Program-made: the position numbers and the translations under genes
Shown here: in pieces, positions 4,232-10,146 of the stretch
How the letters are laid out: each line of letters opens with the position of its first letter
Numbering within the stretch: the first letter of the stretch is position 1
Notes under the pieces: generated by a model
What the model was told of the DNA's origin: nothing
The model's input: only the letters and a program-made list of their open reading frames with translations
Databases searched by the model: none
NCBI GenBank assembly: GCA_030653175.1
Contig: JAURZV010000032.1
Span: 1 to 57,274, forward strand
DNA from: Methylobacter sp.
GTDB lineage: Bacteria; Pseudomonadota; Gammaproteobacteria; Methylococcales; Methylomonadaceae
Reading direction: 5' to 3'
DNA length: 57,274 nucleotides

Positions 4232-5659
4232 TTATTTCTTGTTTTTAAGCAAAAGCGCTGCTCCATGCAGGGCTTTTGCAAGGGTAGGGTGGGCGTGTAT
4301 GGTTCTGGCCAGGTCTTCGCTGCTGGCGGAAAACTCCATAGCCAGCACGGCTTCGGCAATCATTTCGGAGGCTTGTGTGCCGATGATATGAATGCCGAGC
4401 AGGGCATCGGTTTCTGCGTGTGCGATGATTTTAACCATGCCCTCAGTTTGACCAATGGCTTGAGCGCGAGCTGTGGCTTTTAACGGAAAGGTGCCGATTT
4501 TGATGGGTTCGCCCATGGCCCTTAAGGCTTGTTCGGTTTGACCTACCCAGGCAATCTCAGGGTCGGTGAAAACAACGCTGGGCAGGAGATCGTAGTTGAC
4601 GGGGTTGTGGAGGCCGGCGATTTGTTCGGCAACGAATAACCCTTCTTCTATGCCTTTATGGGCAATCATGGGGCCGAGCAAGGTCAGGTCGCCTATCGCA
4701 TAAACGCCGGGCTGGGTGGTGCGGCAGTTTTCATCGACATGGACATAACCGTTTTCGTCGAGCAATAAATTGGCTTCCGCGGCGGCCAGATTTTCGGTAT
4801 TGGGTTTTCGACCGGACGCAACAATCAATTTATCGACACGCAGGGCATGGGTGCCCTCACTATCCTGGTATTCTACGGTGACTTTTTTACTGCCTTTTTT
4901 GGCTGAAATAACCCGCGCGCCCAAGCGCAGTTCCAGTCCCTGTTCGCTATAGATACGATAGGCCTCTCGCGCAATTTGCTGGTCGGCCATGCTTAAAAAT
5001 GATTCCTGCGCTTCCAGCAGAATGGTTTCAGCGCCGAGTCTGTTCCAAATGCCTGCTAATTCGAGGCCGATAACGCCAGCACCGATAATGGCTAAGCGCT
5101 TGGGTACTGAGTTGAGGTTTAAGGCCATCGTCGAATCGATAATAAACTCATTATCGATCGGCGCACAGGATAAATCGATTGGAGAGGAGCCGGTGGCCAG
5201 AATAATGTGCTTGGCTTCGAGCATCGATACAGCCGAGCGATCGGCTGGCGTGACTTCTACAAAATGCTCATTGAGCAGCTTGGCCTCCGCTTGAATACAG
5301 TCGATTTTGTAATGGGCGAACGAGTCGGCAATTTGTCGACTGAGTGCTTTAACAATATCGTTTTTGCGCTTCATCATCAGCGCAATATCCACAGAAACTG
5401 CCTCTGCCTGAATGCCGTGTTCTTTTAAATTGTAATTGATCGATTGATAAATTTTCGCCGATTCCAGCAAGGCGATAGATGCAACACAACCGGCATTAAG
5501 ATAAGTGCCGCCCAGGCTGCTTTGACCTTGTTCATTGCGCCAGTTATCTATACAGGCGGTTTTTAAGCCGAGCTGTGCGCATCGGATGGCGCTGGAATAA
5601 CCCGCAGGCCCAGCTCCGATCACGATTACGTCAAACGAAGTTGTTTGTTTTTTTGTCAT
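4232..5659 (-). CDS. lpd: Dihydrolipoyl dehydrogenase homologue lacking active-site Cys and Glu
   Basis: A 475-residue FAD/NAD flavoprotein with all usual domains: FAD motif GAGPAGYSSA (residues 15-24), NAD motif GAGVIGLELAG near 190, second FAD motif YAIGDL near 315, and a C-terminal dimer domain. E3 normally reoxidises lipoyl groups with a CLNVGCIPSK disulphide. Here the sequence is YLNAGCVASI: the first Cys is Tyr53 (TAT at 5501-5503) and the usual Lys is Ile62. At the C-terminus the His-Glu pair reads HPTLAK, with Lys462 in place of Glu. The fold is intact but the dithiol chemistry should fail. It follows sucA-sucB after a 400-base repeat-filled gap. It may be a decaying or repurposed E3. 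Confidence 0.85.
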   Translation of the reverse strand: MTKKQTTSFDVIVIGAGPAGYSSAIRCAQLGLKTACIDNWRNEQGQSSLGGTYLNAGCVASIALLESAKIYQSINYNLKEHGIQAEAVSVDIALMMKRKNDIVKALSRQIADSFAHYKIDCIQAEAKLLNEHFVEVTPADRSAVSMLEAKHIILATGSSPIDLSCAPIDNEFIIDSTMALNLNSVPKRLAIIGAGVIGLELAGIWNRLGAETILLEAQESFLSMADQQIAREAYRIYSEQGLELRLGARVISAKKGSKKVTVEYQDSEGTHALRVDKLIVASGRKPNTENLAAAEANLLLDENGYVHVDENCRTTQPGVYAIGDLTLLGPMIAHKGIEEGLFVAEQIAGLHNPVNYDLLPSVVFTDPEIAWVGQTEQALRAMGEPIKIGTFPLKATARAQAIGQTEGMVKIIAHAETDALLGIHIIGTQASEMIAEAVLAMEFSASSEDLARTIHAHPTLAKALHGAALLLKNKK

Positions 5660-6056
5660 AATTATATGCTACCTCGTTCCCAAGCGGCGTGCCTTGTGCT
5701 TGGAATGGTTACGCTGGTTCCCAGGCTCCAGCCTCATCGTTATACACATATTCCGTTGGCACCAAATCAGCTTGGATGCCAACGCAAAGGCTTTTTAAGG
5801 CTACTGCTGGAGTGCAGGCTTCGCCTGCAAGCGCAAGCAAAGCCTGCACTCCAGTTTGTCTCGTTCCCACGCAACGCGCTCATGTTATACACATGTCTGC
5901 GAGACACCGTTATTCCGGCAGGGGTGCCGGAATAACGGTGTCTAATTGACACTTGTGTATAAAGACGAGAGCTCCAGCTTGGGAACTAGCACAATCAGTG
6001 TTTATCCATCTAATCCGTGTCATCTGTGTGCTATTTTCTTAAATGCTGAGTAGTCG
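5660..6056. repeat. Intergenic palindromic repeat cluster between sucB and lpd
   Basis: This gap has no gene but is packed with inverted repeats. One perfect 15-base pair lies at 5807-5821 and 5840-5854 (arms CTGGAGTGCAGGCTT). A perfect 17-base pair lies at 5902-5918 and 5927-5943 (arms AGACACCGTTATTCCGG). Pieces of the CTCGTTCCCACGC family, seen again at 16388-16527, occur near 5666 and 5863. A GCTCCAGCTTGGGAACT piece near 5971 is also found near 50165. The hairpins probably reduce or end transcription from sucAB into lpd. Confidence 0.75.
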
Positions 6057-7316
6057 CTATATATTAAGCAACAGGTGAGCGGGCGCTTCCAGGCATTCTT
6101 TGATGGTGACTAAAAATTGTACGGCCTCGCGACCGTCAACCAATCGATGATCGTACGATAAAGCCAGATACATGATCGGCCTGATAACAATCTGTCCGTT
6201 TTCAACCACCGGCCTTTCCTTGATGGCATGCATGCCCAAGATAGCGCATTGCGGCGGATTGAGTATCGGCGTGGACAGCATGGAACCGAAAATGCCGCCG
6301 TTGGTAATGGTGAAGGTGCCGCCTTTTAAGTCATCGTAGGTCAGAGTGCCGGCCCTGGTCTTTGCGCCGAAATCGACGATACTTTGTTCGATGCCGGCAA
6401 AATCGAGTTGATCCGCATCGCGCAATACCGGCACAATCAGGCCGCGCTCGGTGCTGACCGCAATGCCTATGTCATAGTAGCCGTGATAGATAATGTCGTT
6501 ATCGTCTATGGAGGCGTTGATGGCCGGAAAGCGCTTTAAAGCCTCGATAGAAGCCTTAACAAAGAAAGACATAAAGCCCAGTTTGACATGGTGCTTTTTT
6601 TCAAAGCGTTCTTTGTACTGGTTGCGAAGATCAATCACGTTTTGCATGTTGACCTCATTAAATGTAGTCAACATGGCCGCATTTTGCTGTGCCTGCAACA
6701 GGCGTTCGGCAACTTTGGCTCTTAGCCTAGTCATGGGAACGCGCTGTTCCGGCCGCAGGTTTGAAATCCCCCTGCCTTCGGCTTCCCTTTTTATCAAAGG
6801 AGGACTTTCTGCCTCCCCCTTTGATAAAGGGGGATTGAGGGGGATTTCTTTGACCGCCGGGGCTATCAGCTGAGCTTCCTGCAGGGTTTTTTTATGGAGA
6901 TAATCCAACACATCGGTTTTAGTAAGACGCCCATCCTTGCCAGAGCCTTTGATAGCGAAAGGATCCAGCGCATTCTCGGCAATTAACCGGCGTACCGACG
7001 GGCTTAGCGGGATATCCGACTCTTCCCCGTCCTCAGGTTCAGGGCTGGTCGCCGCTGTTCTTGGGCCTTCTTCTGCGGCTTGAGGTTCAAGCAAAGCCAG
7101 TATCTCGCCGCCAACAACAATGGAACCGTCTTCCTTGAGGATTTTGCCAAGGATGCCGGATTCCGGTGCAGGGACTTCAAGCACAACTTTGTCCGTTTCA
7201 AGATCAACGAGGTTTTCGTTTTTAATAACAGTGTCGCCGGGTTGCTTATGCCAAGTGATCAGCGTTGCATCGGAGACGGATTCGGGTAGGTTGGGAACTA
7301 TGACTTCAATGCTCAT
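6057..7316 (-). CDS. sucB: 2-oxoglutarate dehydrogenase E2 (dihydrolipoyl succinyltransferase)
   Basis: A 419-residue E2 core of the 2-oxoglutarate dehydrogenase complex; it moves the succinyl group from the lipoyl arm to CoA. The lipoyl domain (1-75) has ETDKVVLEV with lipoyl Lys43. The subunit-binding domain lies near 104-140 ([11 protein letters not shown]...[12 protein letters not shown]). The catalytic domain (about 195-419) ends with the active-site motif [12 protein letters not shown]. The linker at about residues 157-185 is encoded by an inserted palindromic repeat (see 6763-6848). It starts 2 bases after sucA ends, so the two are one transcript. The catalytic residues are intact, unlike those in the downstream lpd. 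Confidence 0.95.
6763..6848. repeat. Palindromic repeat inserted in frame in the sucB linker
   Basis: The outer arms GAAATCCCCCT (6763-6773) and AGGGGGATTTC (6838-6848) are perfect inverted repeats. A second, nested pair (TTATCAAAGG / CCTTTGATAA type) lies inside. This is the widespread AATCCCCC...TTTGATAAAGGGGG style of bacterial intergenic repeat. Read on the minus strand it encodes a peptide with NPPLSKGE that is unlike E2 linkers, and the reading frame is kept through it. Confidence 0.85.
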
Positions 7317-7317
7317 G

Positions 7318-10146
7318 TTATTTTCCTGAAAGTTTGCCGTAAAGAGCCGATTGAACGACTGCTTTTTGTTGTTCTATATGGACGCGGAAATTGCCGACAG
7401 CAGGCGCTGCCGATGCCTCTCGACCGGCATAAGTCATACTGATTTTGGAGCCGAGATTATCGCTAAAGTGATGTCTGGACTGATACCAGGCGCCTTGATT
7501 TTGCGGTTCTTCCTGACACCAGATGAACTCTTTAAGATGCGGGTATTTGCCGACTTCCGCTTTAAATAACTCATCGGGAAAAGGGTAGAGCTGTTCTATG
7601 CGGGCAATAGCGACGTGCTTAAGGTCGTCCTGACGCCGTGTTTCCAGCAGGTCGTAATAGACTTTGCCCGCGCACATGACCAGGCGAGTCACTTTTTTGG
7701 GATTGATGTCGTCCTGCTCGCCGATGACGGGCAGGAATTGACCGTCCGTTAAATCTTCCAGTGTGGAAACCGCAAGCTTATGACGCAGCAAACTCTTGGG
7801 ACTCATGACTATCAACGGTTTTCGATAGGGGCGCAGCATCTGACGACGCAGCAAGTGAAATATTTGCGCAGGCGTAGTCGGACTGCAAACCTGGATATTA
7901 TGTTCGGCACACAGTTGCAGATAGCGTTCCAGCCGGGCTGAGGAGTGTTCCGGCCCCTGGCCTTCAAAGCCGTGCGGAAGCAGCATCACCAGATTGCACA
8001 TGCGCCCCCATTTGGTTTCGCCGGAACTGATAAACTGGTCGATAACCACTTGCGCGCCATTGGCAAAATCGCCGAATTGCGCTTCCCAAATAACCAGGGT
8101 ATTCGGCATCGTCGTACTGTAGCCGTATTCGAAACCTAACACGCCCGCCTCGGACAGCAGGGAATCGAAAATCTGCGCAATGCCCTGATCTTTGTCCAGA
8201 TGTTTAATCGGCGTATAGGTTTTATTATGTAGTTGATTATGCAAAACAGCATGGCGATGCACAAAGGTGCCGCGACCGACATCCTGCCCGGTCAAACGAA
8301 CATTATACTTTTCCATTAACAGCGTCGCGTAAGCCATGTTTTCGGCAAACCCCCAGTCCAGCGGCATCGCTCCCGCCGCCATTTTACGGCGGTTGTCCAT
8401 GACTTTGGCGACTCTGGGGTGCATTTCAAAACCGGTCGGCAGTCGTTGCATTCTGTCGCTGCAAAAGCGCAGACGATCCATAGAAACCGAGGTGTCGCAG
8501 GGTGACTTCCAGTCGGTGCCCAGGAATTTGTTCCATTGATTGGTGTACGGATAGGGACCGTCGGCCAGGATAGGTCTGGAAACAACTTCACCGGCTTCCA
8601 GCAGTTTTTGGTAATTTTGTTCCAACTCTGTCGCTTGTTCAACAGTGATAAGCCCGGTTTTGATGAGTTTTTCGGCGTAAAGTTTCCGCGTAGTCTTAAG
8701 TTTGCGGATTTTTTTATACATCAAGGGTTGGGTGGTCGAAGGCTCATCGGCTTCATTATGTCCAAGCCTGCGATAGCAAATAAGGTCGATGACCACATCT
8801 TTATTAAAAGTCATCCGGTAGTCCATTGCCAGTTTGGTTACAAATATAACTGCGTCCGGATCATCGCCATTGACATGGAAAACCGGCGCCTGGATCATGC
8901 TGGCCACATCGGTGCAATAAAGCGTGGAGCGCGCATCCAGCGGGTTGCTGGTGGTAAAGCCGATTTGATTGTTGATGACGATATGGACGGTTCCGCCGGT
9001 ATAAAAAGCGCGGGTTTGCGACATGTTCAAGGTTTCCATGACGATGCCTTGTCCGGAAAAGGCCGCATCGCCGTGGATTAAAATGGGGATTACCGTATTT
9101 TTGCCGTTTATTCCCGCTCGGTCCTGACGGGCTTTAACCGAACCTTCGACAACCGGGTTGATGATCTCCAAATGTGATGGGTTGAATGCCAGCGTTATAT
9201 GAACAGGGCCTCCAGGCGTACTGATGTCGGACGAAAAGCCCATGTGATATTTCACATCGCCGGTACCGACACCCGGCGAAAGCGGCGATGTACCGGCAAA
9301 CTCATTAAACAGGCTGGCAGGACTTTTGCCCAGAATGTTGACCAGCACATTTAACCGGCCTCGGTGAGCCATGCCGATCACAATCTCATTAACGCCTTTT
9401 GCGCCAAATCCTTGGGTTAATTCATCCAGAATTGGAATCAGCGATTCGCCGCCTTCCAAAGAAAAACGTTTTTGACCGACAAACCGATTATGCAAATGAC
9501 TTTCTATGCCTTCCGCGGCAGTCAATAGCTTAAGCGTCCAGAGTTTTTTTTCAGGTTCCAGCTCCAGGTTGGCTTTAGAGCTTTCCAAACGGTTTATTAT
9601 CCAGCGCCTGATATGGGTATCGACTATGTGCATGTATTCAGAGCCGATGCTGCCGCAGTAAATCTCTTGCAGATTGGCAATAATGTCGCGTAAGGGCAGC
9701 CGGTCGCCACCATAAAGCGCACCGGTGTCGAACAAGGTATCCATATCAGGCTCGGAGAGACCGTAATAAGCGGGATCCATATCGGGAGGAGGAGGCGAGG
9801 TTTTGCCCAATGGGTTATTGGCGGCAATCTGATGGCCGCGAACCCGGTAATGATTAATAAGCCTGGCAACAGCCGATTGCTTTTTGACGCTTTCTTCGGT
9901 AAAGCCTTGTAATTTCGCCAATCTGCCTTGAGATTTAAGCGCAAGCTGCGCAAAGCGTTCTACGACAGGGCTATGAGGTGTCTCAAAATCAGCGCCGTCG
10001 TGAATTTCGTTGAATTTTTTTTGCCAGCTGGGTTCAACCGAGTCAGGGTCTTCGAGAAACCGTTCGTATAAGTTCTCAACAAAGCCGGCGTTGCTACCAT
10101 AGAGAGAAGAAGAATCTTGAAAAAGTTTAAGCAGCTTACTCATCAT
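7318..10146 (-). CDS. sucA: 2-oxoglutarate dehydrogenase E1
   Basis: A 942-residue thiamine-diphosphate-dependent E1 subunit that decarboxylates 2-oxoglutarate and succinylates the lipoyl group of SucB. Visible landmarks are an N-terminal [20 protein letters not shown] segment, [13 protein letters not shown], the active-site [11 protein letters not shown], the ThDP/Mg motif [10 protein letters not shown], and [12 protein letters not shown]. The pyrimidine-domain residues [13 protein letters not shown] lie near residue 690. The length matches complete E1 (about 930-950). Two ATGs in tandem (MMSK) are possible starts. The promoter should lie in the 155-base gap shared with the divergent DUF2914 gene. 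Confidence 0.97.

Follow-up and report, generated by a model that had tools for sequence, protein, structure and literature searches.

A dihydrolipoyl dehydrogenase homologue without its redox disulphide encoded behind sucAB in Methylomonadaceae

An E3-like gene with altered catalytic residues

The Saccharomyces cerevisiae protein Irc15p carries Tyr and Ala at the two redox Cys positions of dihydrolipoyl dehydrogenase (E3) and keeps the His-Glu pair; according to PMC6296175, NADH reduces it at 250 per s, and its electrons go to dyes, quinones, and menadione but not to lipoamide. That source also describes Mycobacterium tuberculosis LpdA (Rv3303c), an E3-like protein without one redox Cys and the His-Glu pair that reduces quinones and not disulphides, and the soluble transhydrogenase SthA, which is E3-like and lacks at least one redox Cys (PMC6296175).

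We analysed a 57,274-nucleotide stretch of Methylobacter sp. (contig C16 of a 4.0 Mb genome; hereafter the window), which encodes a further protein of this kind at 4232-5659 on the minus strand. The open reading frame runs for 475 codons with no stop and specifies a full-length E3-like protein that, judged from the frame, profiles, and a structural model, is a dihydrolipoyl dehydrogenase homologue without the CxxxxC disulphide (pseudo-E3). Tyr53 (TAT, 5501-5503) stands at the position of the first, interchange Cys, while the second, flavin-side Cys is present as Cys58 (5486-5488). Ile62 (5474-5476) replaces the Lys of the PSK motif, and the alignment places a one-residue insertion, Thr326 (4682-4684), after the FAD-binding Gly-Asp. 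The catalytic His is retained as His457 (4289-4291), and Lys462 (AAA, 4274-4276) replaces the catalytic Glu; all of these codons lie on the minus strand. The redox motif reads GGT-Y53-LNAG-C58-V-ASI62-ALL, with GGTCLNVGCIPSKALL as its canonical E3 counterpart, and the C-terminus reads H457-PTLA-K462, compared to HPTLSE in canonical E3.

The first-pass annotation had reported Tyr53, Ala-Ser-Ile, and Lys462, and translation with direct codon reading confirmed all three, including TAT rather than TGT at 5501-5503. Tyr53 recurs in other genomes: together with Lys462 it was found in 11 of 11 own-genus genomes from a 201-genome sample of the order, and the pair is common to 22 loci of at least 81% identity (L130-L150 and L179; the L138 alignment stops before residue 462). 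Since the same changes recur across independent genomes, cultured strains included, a sequencing or assembly error was ruled out. Among the matches found, the nearest named relative was a Methylobacter tundripaludum SV96 protein with 93% identity.

The further description of an open frame and intact domains also held, with the FAD, NAD, and dimerisation domains all above their Pfam cut-offs. An AlphaFold model of pseudo-E3 (pLDDT 90, pTM 0.87) superposed on Pseudomonas E3 (5u8v) with a TM score of 0.95 at 50% identity. Against the NCBIfam dihydrolipoyl dehydrogenase model TIGR01350 the protein scored 459 bits, above the curated cut-off of 408.8, and the FAD- and NAD-binding motifs and E3 fold of that type were present, while the CxxxxC disulphide was broken (Y53...C58) and the His-Glu pair incomplete (H457 kept, K462 for Glu). 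Because this score exceeds the cut-off, annotation and metabolic reconstructions may count pseudo-E3 as the E3 of the complex. Four other assignments were rejected: the NAD(P)H-quinone dehydrogenase model NF005883, which we take to cover LpdA (251.7 bits, cut-off 479); the soluble transhydrogenase model NF003585 (307.8 bits, cut-off 465); the single-Cys CoA-disulphide reductase model TIGR03385 (86.2 bits, cut-off 578.8, with Cys58 replaced in 26 of 93 own-family rows); and the mercuric-reductase family, whose cut-off the score did not reach.

In the window, pseudo-E3 follows sucA (E1o; 7318-10146, minus strand) and sucB (E2o, with a lipoyl domain and an E3-binding (PSBD) domain; 6057-7316, minus strand), both named from profiles, and rimK lies downstream. 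Elsewhere in the own family, sucA-sucB-E3-like was the usual order at the loci read, and a divergent hns gene often precedes it. Within the window, sucB and pseudo-E3 are separated by a 397-bp gap (5660-6056) that contains dispersed hairpin repeats and inverted repeats, and its repeat has 76 matches in the source genome, itself included. In locus L120 the sucB and pseudo-E3 matches are just 7 nt apart, so the repeats were probably inserted into the operon of the window strain. The linker of SucB also contains a stretch (ten residues not spelled out here, then ...SPPLIKRE) resembling a repeat element translated in frame.

Other arrangements were seen elsewhere in the order. Two g19 genomes, G178 and G142, have an intact pseudo-E3 located apart from sucAB (L076 and L077), with ORFs that look like transposases close to the gene in L077. 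Two f6 loci (L117:6612-8410 and L118:6995-8479) encode E3-like homologues unlinked to sucA, with Ser replacing the first Cys but the Lys kept; a small ORF with the look of a secreted cupredoxin precedes the L117 gene, their ends overlapping. In L208-L210 (g22), L216 and L217 (f2), and L214 (f4), sucA had no adjoining sucB in the stretch fetched, and sucB was found elsewhere in genomes G146, G168, G180, G009, G016, and G011.

Distribution, replacement pattern, and selection

Genomes of the 201-genome sample were classed by hand from the match listing and motif tables, with "no sucAB-type E3" meaning that no match exceeded 39% identity, a level that other E3 paralogues also reach. Twenty genomes, from the sister families f7 and f8, carry a canonical sucAB-type E3, which also lies behind sucB and has CxxxxC and the Lys in 20 of 20; the His-Glu pair was seen in 19, the L114 sequence being cut. 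Degenerate genes were found in 90 of 127 genomes of the window's own family (f1), one of three in f2, the single f5 genome, and two of ten in f6, and all 94 of these orthologues have lost the first Cys. No sucAB-type E3 was detected in 87 genomes (37 f1, 2 f2, 2 f3, 38 f4, and 8 f6), an absence that is weaker evidence in f4, where several genomes are incomplete drafts. The 37 own-family genomes comprise 28 g4, 6 g22, and 3 g24. A sucA match (E <= 0.001) was nonetheless present in 84 of the 87, the exceptions being G002, G010, and G046. Among the 90 own-family carriers, 88 have an open frame of at least 474 aa, and the gene is frameshifted in G162 (L119) and G161 (L111), where sequencing error is possible. 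Given its absence from 37 of 127 own-family genomes and these two frameshifts, pseudo-E3 appears dispensable in some lineages.

The same degeneration was not seen at the loci read from other gammaproteobacteria. Thirty loci were fetched from 369 genomes of the class, and the 28 outside the own family (one from f7 and 27 from other orders) all keep CxxxxC, Lys, and His-Glu, a sampling that leaves room for rarer degenerate cases among the remaining genomes. In a separate homologue search, 11 of 11 loci outside the methanotroph order were canonical (L183-L190, L192, L195, and L196). We also considered a link with methane monooxygenase: AMO-family matches in f7 and f8, which have the canonical E3, were no better than 9e-111 or missing, and most own-family matches were better than 1e-120. 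This amounts to one phylogenetic split and proves nothing.

Residue frequencies were tabulated from 93 own-family rows, made up of 87 order-sample genomes, the window (the same gene as L006), and five further homologue loci; with two duplicates (L151 = L017 and L160 = L031), the rows represent 90 distinct genes. L119, which is spread over three frames, was left out of the table, and the very divergent own-family sequences L115 and L116 were kept apart. All 90 own-family carriers lack both the first Cys and the PSK Lys, so that residues defining an E3 are gone from every own-family copy sampled. The replacements were narrow, with Tyr, His, or Phe for the Cys in 89 carriers and Met, Ile, Leu, or Val for the Lys in 89. 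Across the rows, position 53 was Y in 48, H in 32, and F in 13, and position 62 was M in 44, I in 30, L in 12, and V in 7. Columns 71 and 364 likewise vary only among aromatics and His, so the restriction at position 53 is not unique. At positions 53 and 62, L115 has V and F, L116 has F and I, and L119, the frameshifted sequence, has Y and M.

The second Cys and the His have been replaced in several branches. Position 58 was C in 67 rows, S in 13, G in 10, and T, D, and N in one each; position 457 was H in 70, R in 17, Y in 4, and N and S in one each; and position 462 was E in 78, K in 12, D in 2, and S in one. With Cys58, His, and Glu retained in 67, 70, and 78 of the 93 rows, some thiol chemistry may be possible outside the lineages with losses. 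Of the two changes singled out by the first-pass annotation, loss of the first Cys proved to be family-wide, whereas Lys462 is confined within the family to the own genus, all 12 rows being the window or its congeners. The Thr326 insertion column is filled in 93 of 93 own-family rows and is a gap in 29 of 29 canonical rows. The FAD glycines, FAD Asp324, NAD glycines, and acidic residue 216 are almost unchanged in the own-family rows. In the other families, the residues at positions 53, 58, 62, 457, and 462 are Y, S, L, F, and K in f5 and F, C, L, S, and R in f2, while in f6 both sequences read S, C, K, Y or F, and D and so retain the Lys.

A maximum likelihood tree (LG+G4, quick search, no bootstrap, trait columns removed) was built without L119, without L111, whose frame shifts near residue 50, and without L114, which is truncated by the contig end; it contains several long branches. 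All 98 degenerate rows formed one clade (SH-aLRT 98), which the canonical f7/f8 clade (94) adjoins. The f6 sequences sit on the longest branch, and L115 and L116 are also on long branches. Because the f6 pair keep the Lys on such a branch, the tree does not fix the order of the losses. The Cys58 column changed 14 times on the tree.

Selection was estimated from pairwise dN/dS (NG86), taking medians over pairs with dS of 0.05-1.5. For pseudo-E3 the values were 0.098 in the own genus (223 pairs), 0.035 in g2 (10 pairs), 0.054 in Methylovulum-like genomes (6 pairs), and 0.073 in g10 and its kin (7 pairs); in the same four groups, sucB gave 0.074-0.087 and sucA 0.022-0.052. In f7, the canonical E3 gave 0.029 (3 pairs), with sucB at 0.054 and sucA at 0.016. 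Since its dN/dS lies above the f7 value, pseudo-E3 is under looser constraint than canonical E3. The values indicate that the gene is maintained as a protein.

We next compared conservation across nine regions, using mean pairwise identity in 58 reduced rows. The interface helix, residues 429-456, was the most conserved (0.87, overall mean 0.63). The CxxxxC region is invariant in the canonical clade and fell to 0.58 in degenerate rows, and regions 65-120 and 121-185 were lower still (0.45 and 0.47). A glutamate of the interface helix presumably contacts the E2 binding domain in Bacillus stearothermophilus E3, and by our count its equivalent is E442. This residue is kept in 91 of 93 own-family rows and offers a lead on E2 contact. 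The retained FAD and NAD motifs and interface helix, together with dN/dS of 0.035-0.098, point to a conserved pseudo-E3. Random decay was ruled out by the dN/dS values and the constrained replacements. These results, along with the single clade, substantiate the earlier view that the gene reflects something other than random decay, and they back its description as a dead or repurposed E3.

Source of E3 activity and 2-oxoglutarate dehydrogenase in type I methanotrophs

The source genome has two canonical E3 genes, so the second lpd that the first-pass annotation had raised as a possibility does exist. One, on C43, has CxxxxC, PSK, and HPMLSE and lies behind ORFs that we named aceE and aceF from their length, order, and look; the other, on C11, has no E1 or E2 adjoining. 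The C43 E3 as a query matched in 200 of 201 genomes, with weak or no matches in four f4 drafts (G101, G103, G107, and G109). All five catalytic residues were present at 46 of 46 pyruvate dehydrogenase-type loci checked, comprising the 30 best matches to the C43 E3 and 16 loci from genomes without any sucAB-type E3; a canonical E3 of this type was thus found in 16 of 16 such genomes. In g4, where the sucAB loci of 9 of 28 genomes were read, sucA and sucB occurred with no E3 match in 10-12 kb in 9 of 9, and the E3-binding domain of SucB is still conserved there. In E. coli and other bacteria it is common for several complexes to draw on a single E3. Because a canonical E3 accompanies aceE-aceF and 84 genomes have sucA without a sucAB-type E3, the activity probably comes from a shared E3, which lends indirect support to the idea that the complex borrows E3 from pyruvate dehydrogenase.

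We take g4 to be probably Methylomonas, g2 probably Methylotuvimicrobium, and f4 Methylococcaceae; M. buryatense 5GB1 would then belong to g2, which carries the gene, and M. capsulatus to f4. According to PMC517821, 2-oxoglutarate dehydrogenase activity is missing from nearly all type I methanotrophs, among them M. capsulatus, although M. capsulatus has the genes. PMC5802761 reports that in M. alcaliphilum 20ZR this activity was not detected and pyruvate dehydrogenase was active. M. buryatense 5GB1 is cited in PMC6456754 for a complete oxidative cycle on methane, with the cycle contributing little malate on methanol. In PMC6373157, other routes at the 2-oxoglutarate node are reported for M. 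buryatense 5GB1, while in Methylomonas DH-1 the dehydrogenase complex is reported as the only route, and a succinate dehydrogenase mutant of DH-1 is said to accumulate succinate (data not shown in that paper).

Since the f4, 20ZR, 5GB1, and DH-1 cases differ, presence of pseudo-E3 and absence of activity do not track simply. The suggestion that this gene is a direct candidate for the missing activity is therefore not supported as a general cause: M. capsulatus also reportedly lacks the activity, yet no orthologue was detected in 38 of 38 sampled genomes of its presumed family f4 (several of them incomplete drafts), and M. buryatense 5GB1 is cited as running the cycle. The gene may still contribute in M. 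alcaliphilum 20ZR, which presumably shares its genus with M. buryatense 5GB1. We sought expression evidence in the Methylobacter papers PMC6222125, PMC6977074, PMC9723741, and PMC12810054, from whose main text the terms oxoglutarate, TCA cycle, and dihydrolipo- are absent. Among the matches listed in the open-access literature, there was no description of an E3 without its Cys in methanotrophs.

Candidate roles and relation to known E3-like proteins

We propose that pseudo-E3 derives from the lpd that stood third in a sucA-sucB-lpd operon. The first redox Cys would have disappeared in an ancestor of f1, f2, f5, and f6, as would the flavin-side Lys in all of these but f6. With these residues lost, electron transfer from dihydrolipoamide to FAD should no longer work, and pseudo-E3 is in all probability dead as an E3. 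The 2-oxoglutarate dehydrogenase complex would instead be supplied from the pool of canonical E3 that also serves pyruvate dehydrogenase. Less certainly, the dimer may still bind FAD, and pseudo-E3 is probably still a flavoprotein that NADH can reduce without a disulphide step. It is possibly docked on the E3-binding domain of SucB, where its part would be accessory or regulatory and not that of the oxidoreductase; we infer docking from conservation, and the same helix (429-456) also serves the dimer. Taken as a whole, we regard as reasonably probable a conserved pseudo-E3 of the sucAB operon that is NADH-reducible and accessory on SucB, with the working E3 shared with pyruvate dehydrogenase.

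The strongest rival, though distinctly less probable, is that the protein has become an NADH:acceptor oxidoreductase, a diaphorase or quinone reductase acting apart from the complex in the manner of Irc15p or LpdA. Irc15p has the same first-Cys-to-Tyr change and, according to PMC6296175, reduces quinones and dyes and not lipoamide. The NADH and FAD motifs of pseudo-E3 are kept, the gene is intact in two genomes away from sucAB, and the two f6 homologues are unlinked to sucA. However, most of the loci read have the gene directly behind sucB, no other region is as conserved as the interface helix, and the quinone-dehydrogenase and transhydrogenase cut-offs were not reached. Rather improbable is a regulatory subunit whose NADH-reducible, disulphide-free flavin dimer would compete with the shared canonical E3 for the E3-binding domain of SucB and throttle the complex according to NADH state. 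If true, the TCA cycle of these methanotrophs would have a pseudoenzyme valve, which could account for the low or undetectable activity of type I carriers.

A working E3 that tolerates the losses by using Cys58 alone or an outside thiol seems very unlikely. Cys58 and His457 are present here and in 67 and 70 of 93 rows, and the NCBIfam score is that of a dihydrolipoyl dehydrogenase, but the dithiol mechanism established for the family requires both Cys, and Cys58 is replaced in 26 of 93 rows, with 14 changes on the tree, while the gene is still under selection, including in g10, where many rows are without it. We give the least weight to a decaying relic on its way out. The gene is absent from 37 of 127 own-family genomes, G162 and G161 carry frameshifts, and L115 and L116 have long branches, but 88 of 90 carriers have an open frame of 474 aa or more, dN/dS is 0.035-0.098, and the replacements are constrained.

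A conserved pseudo-E3 of the sucAB operon in Methylomonadaceae (f1) and some relatives has a testable bearing on methanotroph central metabolism, and the old question of how 2-oxoglutarate dehydrogenase operates in type I methanotrophs, if it does so at all, becomes testable gene by gene.

Among its closest known systems, pseudo-E3 resembles dihydrolipoyl dehydrogenase itself (Pseudomonas LpdG, 5u8u/5u8v, and 1lpf), with a TM score of 0.95, about 50% identity, shared FAD and NAD motifs, and a place behind sucB that matches the canonical f7/f8 genes. It differs in having neither CxxxxC nor the PSK Lys, in its Lys for Glu, and in the one-residue insertion. LpdA, as described in PMC6296175, is likewise E3-like and without one redox Cys, but pseudo-E3 falls below the NF005883 cut-off (251.7 vs 479 bits), and it is separated from SthA by 307.8 bits against the NF003585 cut-off of 465. 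With Irc15p it shares E3 homology, Tyr at the first redox Cys, absence of the disulphide, a retained His, and FAD, with NADH reduction known in Irc15p. The second Cys is Ala in Irc15p and Cys in pseudo-E3, Irc15p keeps the Glu, and Irc15p is a microtubule-associated yeast duplicate of Lpd1p, whereas pseudo-E3 is a family-wide bacterial operon copy. Because pseudo-E3 nests with canonical sucAB-linked bacterial E3 (in a tree without Irc15p), we infer convergence. The aromatic residue that both have at the first Cys suggests one workable means of closing the thiol site beside the flavin. Pseudo-E3 would then be a bacterial, operon-encoded parallel to yeast Irc15p, in which the first Cys was exchanged for an aromatic residue, apparently independently, and the product kept under selection.
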